IMG/VR virus record: IMGVR_UViG_3300042691_020140
Coordinates: 1 to 64,000 of that record
Source: a virus
DNA length: 64,000 nt
Strand: one strand, 5' to 3'
Below, one piece after another: positions 29,580 through 41,199 of the stretch. The translations under genes were made by a program, and so were the position numbers. Positions within the stretch are counted from its first letter, which is position 1, and each line of letters opens with the position of its first letter. The notes beneath the pieces are model-generated. The model saw only the letters and a program-made list of their open reading frames with translations, ran no database searches and was not told where the DNA came from.

Positions 29580-30515
29580 ATGAGAGTTTTAAGTTTATTT
29601 AGCGGTATTGGTGGTTTTGATTTAGGACTTATGCGCTCTGGTATGGAAATTGTAGCTACTTGCGAAATTGACAAACATTGTCAAAAAGTACTCAAGACTC
29701 AGTTTCCTAATGTACCCATTTATTCTGACGTTAAGGAGATTAAATTTGAACGACACTCAGTTGACCTTGTTTGTGGAGGATTCCCTTGCCAAGACCTCTC
29801 AGTCGCTGGAAGACGACGTGGGCTTGATGGAGAACGCTCTGGCCTCTGGTTTGAGTATCAGCGAATTATCGACGAAATTGAGCCTAAGTGGGTCATCATC
29901 GAAAACGTTCCGGGTCTACTCTATTCCGCCAAAGGAGAAGACTTTACCGTCATCATTCGCTGGTTGGCAGACAGGGGGTATGGCGTGGGCTGGAGAGTGC
30001 TTGACAGTCAAGGTTTTGGACTTGCCCAAAGACGCAAGAGAGTCTTCATTGTCGCAAGTTTTGGAAGTCCAAGCGGATGCACGTTACTTCTTGAGCCCGA
30101 AAGCCTGCGCCGGGATTCTCTACCGAGCAAAGAAGAAGGGGAAGAACATCCCAGAACCATTGCGAAGTGCCTTAGCACGCACGGCTGGAGAAACGACGCT
30201 TCAGTAGAAACCTATGTAGAGTATGTACTGTGGGAAGCTTCTCATGGTTACGATCCGGCTAGAGTAAGTCCTGACCCTGAGTTAGTTCCTACTTTATCAG
30301 CTAAAATGGGCACTGGTGGTAACAATGTTCCGCTAGTTGGCTTACGTAGGCTAACCCCAGTCGAGTGTGAGAGGTTGCAGGGATTTCCCGACAACTGGAC
30401 AGCCGGTAATTCTGACACACAGCGTTATAAACAATTAGGTAATGCTGTTTCAGTTCCGGTTATTGAATGGATAGGTAATAAAATTATGGGAGTATCGAAT
30501 GGACAACAAGGCTAA
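29580..30515 (+). CDS. C5 cytosine DNA methyltransferase
   Basis: A 311-aa enzyme with all the main C5-MTase motifs in order. These are motif I SLFSGIGGFDLGL near the start, motif IV GGFPCQDLS (catalytic Cys near residue 71), motif VI ENVPGLL, motif VIII QRRKRVF, a variable target-recognition region (about 190-255), motif IX RLTPVECERLQGFPDNW, and motif X QLGNAVSVPV. It transfers a methyl group from SAM to cytosine. No cognate restriction nuclease is next to it, so protection of phage DNA from host restriction is the likely role. It starts the rightward operon. Confidence 0.95.
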   Translation: MRVLSLFSGIGGFDLGLMRSGMEIVATCEIDKHCQKVLKTQFPNVPIYSDVKEIKFERHSVDLVCGGFPCQDLSVAGRRRGLDGERSGLWFEYQRIIDEIEPKWVIIENVPGLLYSAKGEDFTVIIRWLADRGYGVGWRVLDSQGFGLAQRRKRVFIVASFGSPSGCTLLLEPESLRRDSLPSKEEGEEHPRTIAKCLSTHGWRNDASVETYVEYVLWEASHGYDPARVSPDPELVPTLSAKMGTGGNNVPLVGLRRLTPVECERLQGFPDNWTAGNSDTQRYKQLGNAVSVPVIEWIGNKIMGVSNGQQG

Positions 30516-31485: not shown

Positions 31486-33636
31486 ATGTATCTTAAGCCT
31501 GAGTTTTTGAATAAGTACCCTGATAACCCCCAATGGAACTCTCTGTTGGGGCAGTTTGTTTATCTTCGCACGTATTCACGATTTGACCACATCAAAGGTC
31601 GCCGTGAGCACTGGAAAGAGACCTGTGCTCGTGTGGTTAACTACAGTATGAGTTTGTACGAGGGTCCAGCTGACACCGCTGAGTTGCGGGATGAGGCTGA
31701 GAAGTTGTTTCACGAGATGTTTAATCTCCGTTTGTTCACTGCCGGTCGTACAATGTGGATTGGCGGTACTGAAGCTGCACGTAAGTTCCCTTTGTCGAAC
31801 TTTAACTGTTCGTTCACGGTAGTGGACTCGTACCGTGCGTTTGTCGATGCCTTTTATCTTATGATGCTCGGTACTGGGGTTGGTTTCCGCGTTCTTCAGA
31901 ACGACGTTAGTCAGCTTAAGGCTATCAAAACTAACGTAGTTGTAGCCCACAAGCCTTACCATCCTAAGATGCAGGAAAACCGTGTGGATAATACCACTGT
32001 TTATGAAGACAGTGGTGGCGTGTACATTATCGTAGGCGACTCAAAAGAGGGTTGGGTAGATGCACTTAATATTTACTTTGACGTTCTGACTAGTAATAAG
32101 CAGATTGAATCAATCATGATTAACTACGATAATGTTCGTCAGCAGGGTGAGATTCTTAAGACTTTCGGCGGTCGTGCCTCTGGTCATACTGCTTTGCGTG
32201 ACATGTTTAAGCAAATTCATAAGGTTGTTTGTCGTGGTACTAACAAGTTGTCAACAGTTCAAGCTATGGACATTATGAACATCATCGGTTCATGTGTTGT
32301 CGTAGGTGGAGTGCGCCGTTCGTCGGAGATTACTCTTTTTGATATTGGTGACAAGGAAGTTATGGATGCTAAGGTGGACTTGTGGTCGGATCCGGCTAAG
32401 GCTGACTTCTACTACCGTGGTATGAGTAATAACTCAATCTACTTTACCTCGAAGCCGACCAAAGCGCAGCTTGAGGATATTTTTAAGCGTGTCCTTAATA
32501 ACGGCGAGCCGGGCTTCATTAACGCAACTGCCGCAGCTAAACGACGGCCCAACTATGCGGGCACTAACCCATGTGCTGAAATCTTGCTTGCTGACAACGG
32601 TGTTTGTAACTTGTCCGAGGTTAACGTGGCCGGTTTTGTTGGTTATGACGCCAGTAAACGTCCGTACATCGACTTTAACAAGTTAGCAGATGCTATCAAG
32701 CTTGCTACCCGTGTTGGTCTCCGTATGACTAATGTTGAGCTTGAACTTGCTCACTGGGACGTGGTTCAGAAGCGTGACCGCTTGACTGGTGTTTCGTTGA
32801 CTGGTTTTGTCGAGGCTATGGACGCTGTAGGTGTCGATAGTTCAGACCCGAACTCTTTTGTACCAATCACTACAGAGGACGGTTCGTACTATTCATTGTT
32901 GTTGGGTGACTTCTTGCGGACTCTCAATATTACGGCTAACGAGGAGGCGAATATTTACGCAAAAGAAATGCGTATTCCAGCCCCGTTGTTGGTCACGACC
33001 GTAAAGCCGTCGGGTACGATTTCTCAGCTCCCGACTGTATCATCAGGCGGTCATAGTTCATATGCACCATACTACATCCGCCGTGTTCGTATTTCGTCTT
33101 TTGACCCATTGGCAAAGACTATGTTGGCTGTTGGCTATCCAGTATACCCAGAAGCTACTACCATGCGTCCGGAAGAGTTTGTCAAATTGTCAAACTTCGA
33201 GCGTATGAAAGTGTTGGATAGTGCTCAGACTTGGGTAATTGAATTCCCAATTAAGACCAGTGCTAAGCGTTCTGCTAACTCAGAATCAGCCGTTGAGCAA
33301 CTCAGTCGCTATTTTACTTTGCAGGAGTACTGGACTGACCATAACACTTCAATTACAATCACTTTCTCACCTGAGGAGGTTGATGAGATTATTGAAATGA
33401 TTCTGGAGAATTGGGACCATTATATCGGCGTATCATTCCTGCCAAAGAACACCACTGCTTACCCTCTTCTTCCTTACGAAGAGATTAATGCAGAAGAGTT
33501 TGCAAAGCGACGTAACCAAGTCGAGCATATCACTTGGGAAAACATCGTAGCTGAGTTGGTTCAGCGTGAGTCTAAGCAGACTGAAGAAGACGAGTTTGAC
33601 CCAGATTGTGTCGGTGGCGCATGCCCTGTGCGCTGA
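31486..33636 (+). CDS. nrdJ: Adenosylcobalamin-dependent ribonucleotide reductase (class II)
   Basis: A 716-aa monomeric class II enzyme. Visible features are the first redox cysteine in FNCSF (about 108), the GTGVGFRVLQ segment, the active-site loop NPCAEILLADNGVCNLSEVN (about 361-380) and KPSGTISQLP. The C-terminal CVGGAC pair has the same Cys-x4-Cys spacing as the Lactobacillus leichmannii triphosphate reductase. It reduces ribonucleotides to deoxyribonucleotides with a B12 radical and needs no oxygen and no second subunit. The host must therefore make or take up cobalamin. No intein or intron is seen. Confidence 0.95.
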   Translation: MYLKPEFLNKYPDNPQWNSLLGQFVYLRTYSRFDHIKGRREHWKETCARVVNYSMSLYEGPADTAELRDEAEKLFHEMFNLRLFTAGRTMWIGGTEAARKFPLSNFNCSFTVVDSYRAFVDAFYLMMLGTGVGFRVLQNDVSQLKAIKTNVVVAHKPYHPKMQENRVDNTTVYEDSGGVYIIVGDSKEGWVDALNIYFDVLTSNKQIESIMINYDNVRQQGEILKTFGGRASGHTALRDMFKQIHKVVCRGTNKLSTVQAMDIMNIIGSCVVVGGVRRSSEITLFDIGDKEVMDAKVDLWSDPAKADFYYRGMSNNSIYFTSKPTKAQLEDIFKRVLNNGEPGFINATAAAKRRPNYAGTNPCAEILLADNGVCNLSEVNVAGFVGYDASKRPYIDFNKLADAIKLATRVGLRMTNVELELAHWDVVQKRDRLTGVSLTGFVEAMDAVGVDSSDPNSFVPITTEDGSYYSLLLGDFLRTLNITANEEANIYAKEMRIPAPLLVTTVKPSGTISQLPTVSSGGHSSYAPYYIRRVRISSFDPLAKTMLAVGYPVYPEATTMRPEEFVKLSNFERMKVLDSAQTWVIEFPIKTSAKRSANSESAVEQLSRYFTLQEYWTDHNTSITITFSPEEVDEIIEMILENWDHYIGVSFLPKNTTAYPLLPYEEINAEEFAKRRNQVEHITWENIVAELVQRESKQTEEDEFDPDCVGGACPVR

Positions 33637-33655
33637 CACAAAAATAGGGTATATT
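33633..33655 (+). promoter_or_regulatory. Candidate rightward late promoter
   Basis: CTGACACAAAAATAG at 33633-33647, two bases, then TATATTAGTAGAG. It shares the 15-base block with the leftward element at 29025-28997. It overlaps the stop codon of the reductase gene and precedes the terminase/portal genes. Confidence 0.62.
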
Positions 33656-33661
33656 AGTAGA

Positions 33662-33735
33662 GAGGTAGTTTTACAGGAGTTTCATCCACCTAAAAGTGGG
33701 TTTACTTCTCTAAAACTACCTCGATTTTTTATTTT
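33662..33735 (+). terminator. Long hairpin with T-run: terminator or attenuator
   Basis: A perfect 12-bp stem, GAGGTAGTTTTA paired with TAAAACTACCTC (33662-33673 and 33711-33722), encloses a smaller hairpin (CCAC/GTGG) and is followed by GATTTTTTATTTT. It ends transcription from the reductase gene. Because the candidate late promoter lies just upstream of it, it could also attenuate late transcription of the packaging genes. Confidence 0.72.
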
Positions 33736-33745
33736 AGGGGTACTT

Positions 33746-34393
33746 ATGGCTAAGAAATCAAGGTTTCAAGAAATATTAGAGGAATATAGCCTTAAATACG
33801 ACTTAGAGACGTTAAATTCTCCTAACGACCGAGCTAATTTGGAAATGTTGATTAACAACCAAGTGCTTGTGGAACGTCTTCAGGGGGAGTTGCTTCAGTT
33901 AACAGAAGAATCCGCAGTTGACAATATCGATGACATAAAAAACATCAGTAACGCTATGCGTGATATTATTGAAAGAAACTTGCAGATTGAGCGTGCTCTC
34001 GCTTTAGACCGCAAGACACGTAAGTCAGAAAACAGTGACAGTATAGCATCGTACATTACTAATCTTAAAGTTGTAGCTCAAAACTTTCTCGAAAAAAGGT
34101 TAATTAAAGTCTACTGCCCGGACTGTAAAGTTCTTGTGGCTAGATTTGCCCCAGTTATGGACCACACGGCGTTTCATTTCGAGACTCAGTGTAGTCAGTG
34201 CGGACAGCGTGTTATAATGGGGCGTAAAGCCGAGGCTGAGGGCGTATTCTTCGACATCAAAGACTACCGCTGGAGAAAGCAATATCTCTATGAGGTAGTG
34301 CAGCCGGATATGGCTAAAGATACTCCAGAGTTAGACAGCGAAGAGGAGTTATTTATTATAGAGGACGAAGATGGCACTACAGAAAAAGATTGA
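33746..34393 (+). CDS. Zn-ribbon protein upstream of terminase, possible small terminase
   Basis: A 215-aa protein from the ATG at 33746 (MAKKSRFQEI), which has AGGGG as RBS; an open frame extends upstream but crosses the terminator. The N-terminal two thirds are helical and charged. A zinc ribbon (CPDC, then CSQCG) is at about 131-156 and the tail is very acidic. It overlaps TerL by 23 bases. Position suggests a DNA-recognition subunit (TerS analogue), but the zinc ribbon is not typical of TerS, so the call is tentative. Confidence 0.5.
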   Translation: MAKKSRFQEILEEYSLKYDLETLNSPNDRANLEMLINNQVLVERLQGELLQLTEESAVDNIDDIKNISNAMRDIIERNLQIERALALDRKTRKSENSDSIASYITNLKVVAQNFLEKRLIKVYCPDCKVLVARFAPVMDHTAFHFETQCSQCGQRVIMGRKAEAEGVFFDIKDYRWRKQYLYEVVQPDMAKDTPELDSEEELFIIEDEDGTTEKD

Positions 34394-36974
34394 AGAAGCT
34401 GAGATAGCCCTACTCGAAGTTATTGAGGATCCAATATGGTTCAGTGAGTTTCTACGCTCGACCAATCAGGGTGACATGAACAAAAACAACTGGCCGTCGG
34501 ACGAGTTTAAGCACAGACCGTACCAGAAAGAAATCCTGACCGACCAAAATAAACATATTGTAATTACTGGTGGACGTTCAATCGGTAAATGTCAGCCGCT
34601 AAGCTCTAGAGTGTTTACAACCGAGGGCTACAAAACTGTAGGACAGCTAGTCAGACTAAAAGGTAGAGCGTTTATGGCTTATGCCTACGGTACTGATGGT
34701 AAATTTAGACCCAGAAGAGCTGTAGTTACTAAAGATAAGTGGAAAAAGCTAGTAAAACTCTACATGCCTAACAACATTGAGCTCGAGTGTACTGAAAACC
34801 ACCCTATCCTAACCACAGAGGGATTTAAACTAGCCGGTGATATAAAAATAGGCGAGTTAGTTGCCGTTACAAATATTCTCCCGTCAGTGCACTGTGTGAA
34901 TGATAGCTTTTCTTGGTTTGAACTTAGACTTTTAGGTTACTCAGCACTAAATCGCTTAAAGCTTGTAGGTTATGTGGGTATTAAACCTAAGTTTAACCAA
35001 ATTGCAGAAGAGCTAGAACTTATCGCAAAAGAAACCTACTGTAACTTACGTGTAGAAGACGGTGCATACTTCCTAGATAGAATAAAGACTGGTCAGAACA
35101 GACACTACCTAAGAAACTTGTGGCACGAAATTGGTATGTATGCTGTAGATAAGCGAAGAATTACCAAACTTACTTTCCTGAAAAAGGAGAAGTTAGACAA
35201 CATTAAAGTATTTCTCGAAGCGGTGTTTGCTCAGTATGCTACCCTCTCCAGAGACAAGATTACTTTAGAAGTGTTCAACAAAGAGTACGTTAAAGACTTT
35301 CAGGAGTTGTTGATGTACTTTGGAGTTAACACAGTCATAACTAAGACAGAACGGCGATTCAAGGACACAGTTAGCTTCCCCATCGACGACCGCATCTACA
35401 TCCTAGAAACTATCGATAAGGAAAACGCTCACAGATTCTGGTCTATTTTTAAGTTACCCGGTGTTAAAACTAATTTCCAACCAACCACTTTGGAAGAAGT
35501 GGAACCCTTGCGATGGGAGCCAGTATTACGTAAAACTAAAAAGGACTATGAGACGGTTACCTACGCTGTGTCGGTTTACACAGATGAGACCTACATCTCA
35601 GAACACGTAGTTGTTCATAATTCTGTAATTATCGAAGACTTATTAACATACCAAATTGTAAACAACGACGTAGAATTCCCAAAGACATCTGAGCAAGTTC
35701 TTGTTACACCAAATACCAGTCAAATGACTCCGCTGTTAGATAGGTTAATTCTTAAGTTTACAACCTCACCCCTACTTAGTGAGTTTCTAGGCAATAATGT
35801 AAATAGGTCTAAAGGAACTCTTGACTTTAAGTTTGGCGGTAGAAATCATAGATTTTACGCCCGTATTGCAGGCTCTAAAGAATCGAATAACTTGGTAGGT
35901 TTACACATTCCTAAAATTGCTGGTGATGAAATGCAATTGTTCCCAATGACCGCATTTAATCAGTTACAACCAACGTTAAACACATGGGAGCCTAAAGTTC
36001 AGGAAGTATATTGCGGAGTTCCTAATGGGTTAAGAAATTCGGCTCTGTACGACCTAGATATTCGTAGACCTAAGTACAAAAAATACAGAATACCATCACC
36101 CAATAATCCTTACTTTACACTAGATGATTGGAACGATGCCCTGCGAAAGTACGGTGGTATTGAGGAGGACATTTTCCAGCAACTAGTTTTAGGTAGACAC
36201 GGATCTGCTAGTTTTCAAGTTATTCCAAGAGATTCAATCGTTACTGAGGCTTTCGACTTCTATGCGTATAGATTTTCAAATAACGACAAACTTAAGGGTA
36301 AGAAATTTGAAGACGTACTTAAACTACACCAGTTAAAGGGTCAGGATGCGATACTCTTTGCTATAGACACTGGGTTTTCAGACCCGACTATCATCCAAGT
36401 AATAGGGATGAAAGATAATAAATACAGAACTTTTGTACGGTATAGACTAACTAAAATAGACTATCCAGAACAAGAGAGAATTATTCACTATCTATCAAAG
36501 CATTACAATCCAAGTAGAATAGCAATCGACGTAGGTGCTGGTGGTGGTGGTGCAGGTATGTACCAATCACTGTCTTCACGAGAAGAATATGCTTCAGGAA
36601 AATATAATGAACGAATTATTACTGTTCTCTTTAATGAGCGTGTACCAGTCGGCAGAACCGACGATGATACAGAACTTACTGAGGTTTTTCGTTCTTGGGG
36701 CTCGAAAGAGCTTGCAAGGATGGTCACAGAGGGTGACATGATTTTCTCAGAAATTGACGTTGAGGGTATTTCTCAGCTAGAGCGATTAACCCGACAGAAA
36801 AGAATGACTGGTAATGACCATTACTTTGTCATGGGAGAAAGGGGCAACGGCGCATCGGACGATGACCACATATTTGCGTCGTACTTATGTTTTATCTACG
36901 CATTACGAGGTAAGACACAAACAATAACTAGCGTTGGTCTGGGTAGACCAGTTTCCAACACAACATCGAGGTAA
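34371..36974 (+). CDS. terL: Terminase large subunit, interrupted in its P-loop by an intein
   Basis: An 867-aa precursor. Removing residues 74-417 leaves a 523-aa terminase. The joined sequence GGRSIGK-SVIIED restores a Walker A loop. Walker B/catalytic Glu is KIAGDE (about 515-520). The C-terminal nuclease has acidic residues in AIDTGFSDPT, RIAIDVGAGG and SDDDHIF. It packages phage DNA by ATP-driven translocation and cuts concatemers. Because the intein splits the ATP-binding loop, the precursor cannot be an active motor before splicing. It overlaps the upstream gene and is followed one base later by portal. Confidence 0.93.
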   Translation: MALQKKIEEAEIALLEVIEDPIWFSEFLRSTNQGDMNKNNWPSDEFKHRPYQKEILTDQNKHIVITGGRSIGKCQPLSSRVFTTEGYKTVGQLVRLKGRAFMAYAYGTDGKFRPRRAVVTKDKWKKLVKLYMPNNIELECTENHPILTTEGFKLAGDIKIGELVAVTNILPSVHCVNDSFSWFELRLLGYSALNRLKLVGYVGIKPKFNQIAEELELIAKETYCNLRVEDGAYFLDRIKTGQNRHYLRNLWHEIGMYAVDKRRITKLTFLKKEKLDNIKVFLEAVFAQYATLSRDKITLEVFNKEYVKDFQELLMYFGVNTVITKTERRFKDTVSFPIDDRIYILETIDKENAHRFWSIFKLPGVKTNFQPTTLEEVEPLRWEPVLRKTKKDYETVTYAVSVYTDETYISEHVVVHNSVIIEDLLTYQIVNNDVEFPKTSEQVLVTPNTSQMTPLLDRLILKFTTSPLLSEFLGNNVNRSKGTLDFKFGGRNHRFYARIAGSKESNNLVGLHIPKIAGDEMQLFPMTAFNQLQPTLNTWEPKVQEVYCGVPNGLRNSALYDLDIRRPKYKKYRIPSPNNPYFTLDDWNDALRKYGGIEEDIFQQLVLGRHGSASFQVIPRDSIVTEAFDFYAYRFSNNDKLKGKKFEDVLKLHQLKGQDAILFAIDTGFSDPTIIQVIGMKDNKYRTFVRYRLTKIDYPEQERIIHYLSKHYNPSRIAIDVGAGGGGAGMYQSLSSREEYASGKYNERIITVLFNERVPVGRTDDDTELTEVFRSWGSKELARMVTEGDMIFSEIDVEGISQLERLTRQKRMTGNDHYFVMGERGNGASDDDHIFASYLCFIYALRGKTQTITSVGLGRPVSNTTSR
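34590..35621 (+). other. Intein in TerL with decayed LAGLIDADG endonuclease domain
   Basis: 344 residues, from Cys74 to Asn417 of the TerL precursor, followed by Ser418 as +1 nucleophile. Splicing block A starts CQPLSSRVFTTEG. Block B is the T-x-x-H-type TENHPILT, and the end is a His-Asn pair (VVVHN). The central about 200 residues have the layout of a two-motif LAGLIDADG endonuclease. In both motif positions (LLGYSALNRLKLVG and FLEAVFAQYATLS) the catalytic acidic residue and the glycine partner are absent, so the nuclease is probably dead. Splicing residues look intact. Confidence 0.9.
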
Positions 36975-36975
36975 A

Positions 36976-38463
36976 ATGAGTAATAGTTTAGCAAAGTCCA
37001 CCGCCGCTTACCAACCATCCCCGTTTATGGTTAACGGACAGTTCGTAGCTGGTTACTACGACCCAACTATGCTTCCGTTCGATAACTCGAAGAAGTATAA
37101 GTACCACGACATTATCAAGTTCTGTAGATTTTACTACGATAATGACACAATCGTGGGTACGGTAATTGACCGTATGGTAGACATGGCAATCACCAAACTT
37201 AGAAATAGAAAAGACCGTGATAATCCAGACGTTGCTGTAGAGTACTACAACGCTGTAGCAGAATATCTGCAACCATACCTGAAGTTAATGGCACTTGACT
37301 ATTTTTTGCACGGCATGGCTATTCCTGAGTATACCTACGAGACTATCATGGGTAACAAAGTAGATCCTACTTTGGGTAGGAAGCGTGTGCAATTTCCCAC
37401 AAACTTTTGGGTAAGAAACGCTGAGTACATTGAGCTTCGTAGAAGACCATTAGGAACTGAGCGTGCGGTGTTTATGAAAATCCCAGATGCTGAAGTCAAC
37501 TTCATTCTTACTAAAGGTATGCGAGATGATGGTTCTAGTGATAAAGCCGGTTATCAGGAATTGGTACGTGAGTACCCTAATTATGTAAAAGCGATTGTCA
37601 GTGGTCAGCGTATTTTTCCGTTACCAGATGCACGCCCAATCTACAGAAAGCTTCGTTCTTACGACGATTATCCAAAACCATTCTTACAAAACGCTCTGTA
37701 CGCTCTTCAACACAAGTACTACTTAAAGCTTATGGATAGAAGTATTGCAGCCAGAGCTAGCGAGCTTCTCCGCCACGTAAAAATTGGTAGCGATACTTTT
37801 CCAGCTACAGATGACGACATTAAGTCAACTGAAACTGTACTTGCGACTGCCAGTGTTACTGGTGATAGAGTATTTAATCTTTTTACTAATCACACAGTAG
37901 ATATTAGTTGGGTTACTCCGCCTATGGATGCCCTACTTAATGAAGCTAAGTACATTGAGCCCAACGCTGACATTTTCTTAGCTCTTGGATTTCCTAGAAT
38001 CCTCGCAGTAGGCGAAACTATGCGTAGTAACGCTACAGACAACAAGACGGCTTCTCTTGGACCTATCAGTACCCTAAATGACCTACGTGAGGCCATAGTA
38101 AATTGGGTAGAAAGAACCTACGAAGAGTTAGCAGAAAGAAATGGGTTCACTTGGTACCCAAAGCCGTTCTTTAGTCCTATTGCACTTCAAGACATCACTG
38201 CATTGACCCAGCTTGCTATCCAAGCTCAGCAGATTGGGGCAATTAGCAAGGACACGATTGCTCAGTTGTATGGTACGACCTACGAGGAGGAGCAGGAAAA
38301 AATCGAGACAGAATATCAAGAGGTTCCGCAAGATGATACTAACCAAACCAGAGCTCCAGAAGAACAGTCACCTCCCGCCGGGGATGGGATACAGCCTGAG
38401 GAGCCCGAATCTACCACACAACAGTCTAGTAATTCATACAACAAACGGAAGAGTAGGGACTAA
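36976..38463 (+). CDS. Portal protein
   Basis: A 495-aa protein from the ATG at 36976, preceded by GAGG and one base after the TerL stop. The N-terminal part (DNDTIVGTVIDRMVDMAI) and the central stretch match tailed-phage portal proteins. The C-terminal 50 residues are acidic, Gln/Pro-rich and probably disordered. The dodecameric portal is the channel for DNA packaging and tail attachment. It directly follows the motor gene, which is the usual order. Confidence 0.85.
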   Translation: MSNSLAKSTAAYQPSPFMVNGQFVAGYYDPTMLPFDNSKKYKYHDIIKFCRFYYDNDTIVGTVIDRMVDMAITKLRNRKDRDNPDVAVEYYNAVAEYLQPYLKLMALDYFLHGMAIPEYTYETIMGNKVDPTLGRKRVQFPTNFWVRNAEYIELRRRPLGTERAVFMKIPDAEVNFILTKGMRDDGSSDKAGYQELVREYPNYVKAIVSGQRIFPLPDARPIYRKLRSYDDYPKPFLQNALYALQHKYYLKLMDRSIAARASELLRHVKIGSDTFPATDDDIKSTETVLATASVTGDRVFNLFTNHTVDISWVTPPMDALLNEAKYIEPNADIFLALGFPRILAVGETMRSNATDNKTASLGPISTLNDLREAIVNWVERTYEELAERNGFTWYPKPFFSPIALQDITALTQLAIQAQQIGAISKDTIAQLYGTTYEEEQEKIETEYQEVPQDDTNQTRAPEEQSPPAGDGIQPEEPESTTQQSSNSYNKRKSRD

Positions 38464-39869: not shown

Positions 39870-39882
39870 ATTGGAGAAAAAT

Positions 39883-41199
39883 ATGAACACAATTTTGAAT
39901 AATGATTGTATGGAAGAGCTTAAGAACTTTCCGGACAATATTCTAGACAGCGTAGTCACCGACCCGCCTTATGGTCTTAGTGACTTATCGCCAGAGAAGA
40001 TTACTACAACTATGATGGAGTGGGCTAGTGGTAATCACTCGTTTATTCCTAAGGGTAGAGGATTTATGAATAAAGATTGGGACTCTTTTGTACCACCACC
40101 GGCAGTTTGGAAAGAAGTTTTGAGAGTACTTAAACCCGGTGGGCATATTCTTTGTTTTGCTGGGTCAAGAACTGTTGACTTAATGACTATCAGTCTTCGC
40201 ATTGCTGGATTTGAGATTAGAGATACGCTCATGTGGATATACGGTTCTGGATTCCCTAAGTCTATGAGTGTCGGTAAAGCTATCGACAAGCACACTGGGG
40301 ACGCTCCTGAAAGCCCTAATAAAGGAAAATGGAGACCCGGGCCTCAGGGCAGCGCACCAACTCACCAAGAGGGATGGGGTACTACAGAGGTATTTGATTG
40401 GGACTTAGTTAATGAGGAAGCTCAGAAATGGGTTGGGTGGGGTACTGCTCTTAAACCAGCCGTTGAACCAATTATCTTAGCTAGAAAACCGTTAGACGGT
40501 AATGTAGCCAACAATGTACTTAAGTGGGGAGTTGGTGGAATAAACGTGGATGAGTGTAGAGTTGGTAGTGAGTCATTGCCCGAGAAGAAATCCGGTATAA
40601 ATTCTCTGATGGGTGGATTGAAAAATAAAACTAGCAATACTACCGGTATAACGCCTGAGCGCTCCGGTCGTTGGCCCGCAAACGTAATTTTTGATGAGGA
40701 TGCCGCAGTTATACTTGATAAACAGACGGGTCAGCTGAGTATGCGATTTAGTGAATCGTCTGGTTCTGAGGGCTTCTTTGGCGGTGGTAGGGCATTTAAA
40801 AGTTACGACGACGGTGATAACATGGGGGCTTCCAGATTTTTCTACGTGGCTAAGACTTCTAAGAAAGAGCGTGAAGCTGGTTTAGACGGAATGGAGGTAC
40901 GACAAACTGGTGCTATGCAGGGTAATGTCACTGGCGGGAGGCTTGGTGGAGACGGCTCAGAAATCAAGCCGATACATCGAGCTAACCACCATCCGACTGT
41001 TAAACCAGTTAAGTTGATGACATACTTATGTAGATTGATTACCCCACCCGGAGGGACTGTACTAGATCCGTTTGTAGGCTCTGGTTCAACGGGTATTGCC
41101 GCAGTATTAGAGGGCTTTAATTTTATCGGCATAGAGCAAAACCAAGAGTACGCAGAAATCGCACGCAAACGAATTGACTACCATTTGACAAGTAAATAA
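39883..41199 (+). CDS. Beta-class DNA (N4/N6) methyltransferase
   Basis: A 438-aa protein. The ATG at 39883 is preferred to the in-frame TTG at 39871, because TTGGAGA there is the RBS. Motif IV is near the N-terminus (TDPPYGL, about residue 32) and the SAM-binding motif I is at the C-terminus (DPFVGSGSTG...IGIEQNQEY). This order defines the beta class. The 200-residue middle, longer than minimal, should hold the target recognition region. It modifies adenine-N6 or cytosine-N4, giving a second DNA methylation specificity. No restriction partner nearby. Confidence 0.88.
   Translation: MNTILNNDCMEELKNFPDNILDSVVTDPPYGLSDLSPEKITTTMMEWASGNHSFIPKGRGFMNKDWDSFVPPPAVWKEVLRVLKPGGHILCFAGSRTVDLMTISLRIAGFEIRDTLMWIYGSGFPKSMSVGKAIDKHTGDAPESPNKGKWRPGPQGSAPTHQEGWGTTEVFDWDLVNEEAQKWVGWGTALKPAVEPIILARKPLDGNVANNVLKWGVGGINVDECRVGSESLPEKKSGINSLMGGLKNKTSNTTGITPERSGRWPANVIFDEDAAVILDKQTGQLSMRFSESSGSEGFFGGGRAFKSYDDGDNMGASRFFYVAKTSKKEREAGLDGMEVRQTGAMQGNVTGGRLGGDGSEIKPIHRANHHPTVKPVKLMTYLCRLITPPGGTVLDPFVGSGSTGIAAVLEGFNFIGIEQNQEYAEIARKRIDYHLTSK

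Follow-up and report, generated by a model that had tools for sequence, protein, structure and literature searches.

A clade-wide intein in the P-loop of a viral large terminase keeps, under purifying selection, a LAGLIDADG domain without its catalytic acids

Inteins in the ATPase domain of the phage large terminase (TerL) are known from mycobacteriophages and actinobacterial prophages, in which the TerL1-a inteins lie, as does the intein studied here, between the invariant Lys of the P-loop and the next hydroxyl residue (PMC5050341). The mycobacteriophage and prophage TerL inteins are sporadic among close relatives, whereas the intein described here was present in every relative found, and active endonucleases have been shown for TerL1-b and TerL1-c, whereas the endonuclease of our clade lacks the catalytic acids (PMC5050341). 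Also unlike the TerL1-a setting, tblastn of a phage collection found no isolated-phage relative of our intein, of the C-extein or of the neighboring portal protein.

Several inteins and introns of other genes offer closer parallels to the domain at issue. PhoVMA (7QST) resembles our intein in joining a HINT domain to a LAGLIDADG domain, in having lost the active-site residues of both motifs and in having an Asn at motif 1; its motif-2 helix is shortened, whereas that of the clade is complete and has a mostly aromatic residue at the acid position (PMC8966425). The best structural match to our intein, TliVMA (7QSS, 7QSU), retains the catalytic acids that the clade does not, and sequence identity to it is just 13–14%. 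The homing endonuclease (HEN) domain of TliVMA is active, supports splicing and is required for it to be efficient; PhoVMA, in contrast, splices without its HEN and close PhoVMA-like dead inteins can do so, so that dependence of splicing on the HEN is not a rule (PMC8966425). The yeast VMA1 inteins likewise include full-length, inactive relatives of PI-SceI, and no mini-inteins occur at their site (PMC1508164). In addition, intron endonucleases that turned into maturases illustrate a neutral path to complexity through dependence, the endonuclease being kept since its element needs it for splicing (PMC1654191). Maturases act in RNA splicing, whereas an analogous step in our clade would be one of protein splicing. 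Lastly, DnaBi1, a P-loop intein of Mycobacterium smegmatis, is under redox control through a second cysteine (PMC6195587).

The window, meaning the whole stretch of DNA analyzed here, comprised the first 64,000 nucleotides of a 76,099-base virus record (IMG/VR IMGVR_UViG_3300042691_020140). The features of its TerL gene were as follows:

34371..36974, plus strand: TerL precursor ORF, 867 aa, predicted to be 523 aa after splicing (ORF call)
34371..34589, plus strand: N-extein, ending in the Walker A segment GGRSIGK (translation; outgroup with uninterrupted P-loop)
34590..35621, plus strand: intein, 344 aa, Cys1 to Asn344 (TerL Cys74 to Asn417), an insertion common to 83 contigs
34590..34880, plus strand: HINT N-terminal part, residues 1–97, with Cys1 and the TENHP block B (AlphaFold2 model; splicing-domain matches in the PDB)
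34881..35498, plus strand: predicted LAGLIDADG domain without acids, residues 98–303, limits approximate, from the AlphaFold2 model
34914..34952, plus strand: motif 1 helix, residues 109–121, WFELRLLGYSALN; acid position N121
35193..35240, plus strand: motif 2 helix, residues 202–217, LDNIKVFLEAVFAQYA; acid position Y216
35499..35621, plus strand: HINT C-terminal part, residues 304–344, last letters VVVHN
35622–35624, plus strand: predicted +1 nucleophile, the P-loop Ser
35622..36971, plus strand: C-extein, with the remaining ATPase (Walker B region IAGDEMQLF) and the nuclease domain

The assignment of the gene to the large terminases was supported by several lines of evidence. The C-extein matched Pfam Terminase_6C (32.1 bits) as well as terminase PHROGs, and residues D102, E103, D249, D303 and D415 of the C-extein were invariant in the clade alignment. 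The protein has a Walker A motif (GGRSIGK/S), the Walker B DE pair at residues 102–103 of the C-extein and the Asp residues of the nuclease. The translation has the intein starting with TGT (Cys1) directly after GGRSIGK and ending in VVVHN ahead of Ser+1. Homologues with a natural uninterrupted P-loop, CCGRAVGK|TVTLTD (L259–L262, L264 and L267), fixed the exact insertion point, so that the proposal of a preliminary description, that the Walker A motif is split exactly between K and S, was borne out by both translation and homologues. A second contig (L007), identical over its 387 C-extein residues and with an intein differing by one residue, carries the same insertion, and the intein of the window is therefore not an assembly chimera.

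The splicing signals of the insertion are intact. Pfam Intein_splicing matched the window intein at 37.7 bits (cut-off 35.8) and was found in 46 of 46 clade members. TENHP occupies intein residues 68–72, and across 48 non-redundant inteins C1, H71, P72, H343 and N344 were invariant, which indicates that the signature of the insertion is not due to chance. The block B Thr (T68) was present in 47 of these 48, and the +1 residue was Ser in 42 and Thr in six. Cys1, the Thr-x-x-His of block B, the terminal His-Asn, a hydroxyl residue at +1 and the HINT profile and fold are all features of class 1 inteins, and class 1 splicing is predicted from these residues together with established intein chemistry. 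The splicing signals named in the preliminary description (Cys1, TENHP, His-Asn and Ser at +1) stood, and its argument that splicing must persist, TerL being essential, presumably holds. Besides Cys1, the window intein has cysteines at positions 67, 102 and 151, of which C102 was found in 30 and C67 in 15 of 46 inteins. The preliminary description had also put forward splicing as a possible control point, dependent for example on redox or ATP. As Cys1 is the sole invariant cysteine, the alignment gives no indication of a disulfide switch of the M. smegmatis DnaBi1 type conserved across the clade.

The central part of the intein is modeled as a complete LAGLIDADG domain that has lost its catalytic acids. 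An AlphaFold2 model built from 46 clade inteins (pLDDT 93.5, pTM 0.91; an earlier model from 14 sequences, with pLDDT 61, was not used) consisted of HINT and LAGLIDADG domains, and a Foldseek search of the PDB with it gave TliVMA as the best match (7QSU and 7QSS, TM 0.75 and 0.73), followed by PhoVMA and PI-SceI, with I-DmoI also among the matches. At the level of sequence, Pfam LAGLIDADG_3 fell slightly under its cut-off in the window intein. The model has the two motif helices of LAGLIDADG homing endonucleases, and no acid stands at the end of either: in its place, motif 1 (LLGYSALN) has N121 and motif 2 (FLEAVFAQY) has Y216. Weak HMM alignments of the clade's central domain (E 0.02–0.3) set Y216 against the Asp in the VCDG motif of TliVMA and N121 against the Asn in motif 1 of PhoVMA (LGYLMANG), and they agreed with the motif register on both acid positions. 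Among the 48 non-redundant inteins, Asp or Glu occurred at position 216 in none and an acid at position 121 in only four.

The preliminary description had proposed the intein, its site, its splicing signals, a LAGLIDADG fold and the loss of both catalytic acids, all of which stood, the last by motif register and TliVMA alignment and the fold by the structure prediction. Its term "decayed" did not. The domain was complete in 48 of 48 inteins, which were 328–368 residues long and included no mini-intein without a HEN, and the purifying selection on it was close to that on the splicing domain (below). A homing enzyme acting in trans was considered and rejected: the sole LAGLIDADG_3 match on the 76-kb contig was the intein itself, and no HNH or GIY-YIG match was found on the contig, a record that may be incomplete.

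To find relatives, IMG/VR was searched with the C-extein alone, a query free of the intein, so that relatives with the intein were not favored over those without it. All 83 contigs that had the P-loop on the contig, the window counted, carried the intein at the same site, and these intein-bearing relatives reached down to approximately 33% TerL identity to the query. A search of viral_contigs for empty junctions of the clade type gave no matches, with a pattern that spans only motifs near those of the clade itself; the outgroup, picked up by a protein search, falls outside this pattern. One P-loop pattern match (L018:1971) was discarded, as it was out of frame inside a portal gene. The first uninterrupted P-loops appeared at 29–30% TerL identity, in the six homologues named above, several of which are near-identical. 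The intein-free TerL group (L259–L264 and L267), of which one contig is 96 kb, is a usable outgroup and a natural source of empty sites. The distribution may reflect a single gain by the clade or a single loss by the outgroup, both of which fit the one outgroup at hand. No cellular or prophage TerL relatives were found in genome_contigs, and no TerL relatives were found by sequence among solved structures.

Comparison of the intein and extein trees pointed to common descent. The trees shared 12 strongly supported splits and had no conflicts at SH-aLRT >=95; at a support level of 80, six intein splits conflicted with the extein tree. Pairwise distances of inteins and exteins had a correlation of 0.93, a value reached in none of 2000 permutations. 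Congruence of this kind indicates vertical descent as opposed to homing. Mobile inteins would be recognized by patchy distribution, empty sites and discordant trees; here the clade had no empty site and the trees were congruent.

The acid-less domain is under purifying selection. Over close pairs of branches, pN/pS was 0.143 (0.105–0.187) for the HEN, 0.132 for the N-terminal and 0.122 for the C-terminal part of HINT, and 0.080 for the C-extein. Because most pairs of sequences were synonymously saturated, seven close pairs were also taken (L034/L076, L052/L053, L040/L074, L067/L079, L009/L019, L049/L050 and L014/L086). Summed over these, the LAGLIDADG domain had 23 non-synonymous and 227 synonymous changes and the splicing domain eight and 128, and dS/dN for the LAGLIDADG domain was 28–92 where finite. 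Inactive yeast VMA endonucleases are relaxed by comparison, with dS/dN <4 in 70 of 74 comparisons (Butler et al., PMC1508164). By that yardstick the HENs of the clade would count as active, yet their acids are absent. In distant, saturated pairs dS/dN was approximately 1.5–4 for the LAGLIDADG domain, mostly below HINT, and 3–6 for the splicing domain; the ratio falls in distant pairs, and so long-term constraint on the HEN is weaker. The automatic pooled values (2.4 for HEN and 3.1 for HINT) mix in saturated distant pairs and were not used for the claim of selection; in them, both domains lose signal with distance.

Constraint is unevenly distributed within the domain. The two LAGLIDADG helices were its most conserved elements (mean entropy 1.07 and 1.24 bits; pN/pS 0.096) and the saddle strands, which hold the DNA in active LAGLIDADG enzymes, its least conserved (2.1–2.7 bits; pN/pS 0.199). 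Position 121 varied freely, with 21 changes on the extein tree and 12 residue types. Position 216 was aromatic (Y, H, F or W) in 43 of 48 inteins, and only three of its 13 changes on the tree were between aromatic and other residues. E111, R113 and E210 were almost invariant. Together, these patterns suggest a scaffold retained for packing and not for DNA recognition.

In our best reading, this is an old, fixed, vertically inherited intein in which the dead nuclease fold would by now serve the splicing element as part of its structure, and we consider it probable that the acid-less domain has been retained as a support for splicing or folding. A full-length class 1 intein would have entered the TerL P-loop of the ancestor of the clade and become fixed, homing activity would have been lost once empty target alleles were exhausted, and inheritance would since have been vertical, alongside TerL. 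The LAGLIDADG domain would have been kept without its acids as its fold came to aid HINT folding or splicing, and we propose that, if the domain is needed for splicing of an essential motor, neither it nor the intein could be lost easily. After translation, splicing would start with attack of Cys1 on the bond between Lys73 and Cys74; the N-extein would pass to the P-loop Ser (Ser+1), and Asn344 would cyclize, leaving a TerL of 523 aa whose Walker A motif is intact. With the P-loop interrupted between K and S, normal ATP binding is not expected of the precursor.

Much of this pattern might also be expected of a remnant of the homing cycle, a dead endonuclease that is passively tolerated, with constraint arising because any insert must fold and stay in frame, and with precise loss rare where no intein-free allele is nearby to recombine. 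We regard this as possible, if rather unlikely. The loss of both acids and the lack of empty sites match the phase of fixation and degeneration (PMC1654191, PMC8966425), the route to precise loss is closed without empty alleles, and the HEN is under less constraint than the C-extein. Set against this are a constraint on the HEN similar to that on the splicing domain and well above that of the inactive yeast VMA HENs (PMC1508164), the lack of mini-inteins in the 48 non-redundant inteins, and the rarity of crossings between aromatic and other residues at the motif-2 position. Avoidance of misfolding, with an insert of 200 aa in an essential precursor, could account for part of the selection signal without an active role in splicing.

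Another reading is that TerL splicing is conditional, on redox state, ATP, DNA ends or lytic timing, the dead LAGLIDADG domain being a sensor or DNA-binding module that delays or localizes assembly of the motor. Clade-wide retention under purifying selection would be expected of a function, a precursor interrupted in the P-loop cannot have a normal Walker A motif, DnaB of M. smegmatis has a P-loop intein that splices conditionally (PMC6195587), and Kelley et al. argued that TerL inteins are retained for regulation (PMC5050341). Yet the tested mycobacteriophage TerL inteins spliced readily (PMC5050341), and the saddle strands are the most variable part of a domain whose net charge ranges from -6 to +7. 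We consider a switch unlikely and, as no second cysteine is conserved clade-wide, treat it only as a rival. That splicing is a required, regulated packaging step, with the acid-less domain sensing a signal or DNA to time motor assembly, appears quite unlikely to us. Continued activity of the endonuclease, through non-canonical acids or as a nickase, is highly improbable. Selection on the HEN is as strong as on active enzymes, four of 48 inteins have a motif-1 acid, and E111 and E210 are nearly invariant; these two Glu residues, however, precede the acid positions by 10 and six residues and belong to the N-terminal portion of the helices, the motif-2 acid is missing in all 48 inteins, and the clade has neither an empty target nor a sign of horizontal spread in its trees.

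None of the elements is new by itself: inteins in the TerL P-loop, HEN domains that have lost activity, and dependence between HINT and HEN are all known. A limited literature search did not find a description of their combination as here, with clade-wide fixation, acids absent throughout and strong selection. This clade-wide, vertically inherited state is beyond the reach of a reading of a single sequence. The homing-cycle model has the endonuclease drift and then be lost after fixation, whereas this clade keeps the acid-less domain under selection, which suggests that the phages now depend on the intein. What becomes of "dead" selfish elements can thereby be put to the test. The clade is also a warning that dS/dN alone is a poor basis for calling an intein endonuclease active. 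A large set of viral inteins with dead-HEN members and an intein-free outgroup forms a natural test series, which could be used to test dead homing endonucleases as partners or regulators of splicing in the gene of an essential packaging motor.

One relative had a further interruption of TerL. In L078 (IMG/VR 3300011102_000283), a stop-rich insert of approximately 1 kb (positions ~1500–2420) splits the C-extein between VFCCGV and PNG; it matched no Rfam family and could be an unrecognized intron or other mobile element.

In the window, the TerL ORF overlaps both neighbors, an upstream ORF of unknown family (33566–34393) and the downstream portal ORF (36934–38463), so that the three genes are tightly packed. 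Further upstream lies a class II ribonucleotide reductase (31486–33636) whose nearest isolates are the Thermus phages TSP4, P23-45 and P74-26 at approximately 39% identity, unlike TerL and portal, which have no isolate match. DNA methyltransferase genes (29580–30515 and 39871–41199) lie on either side of the packaging region.
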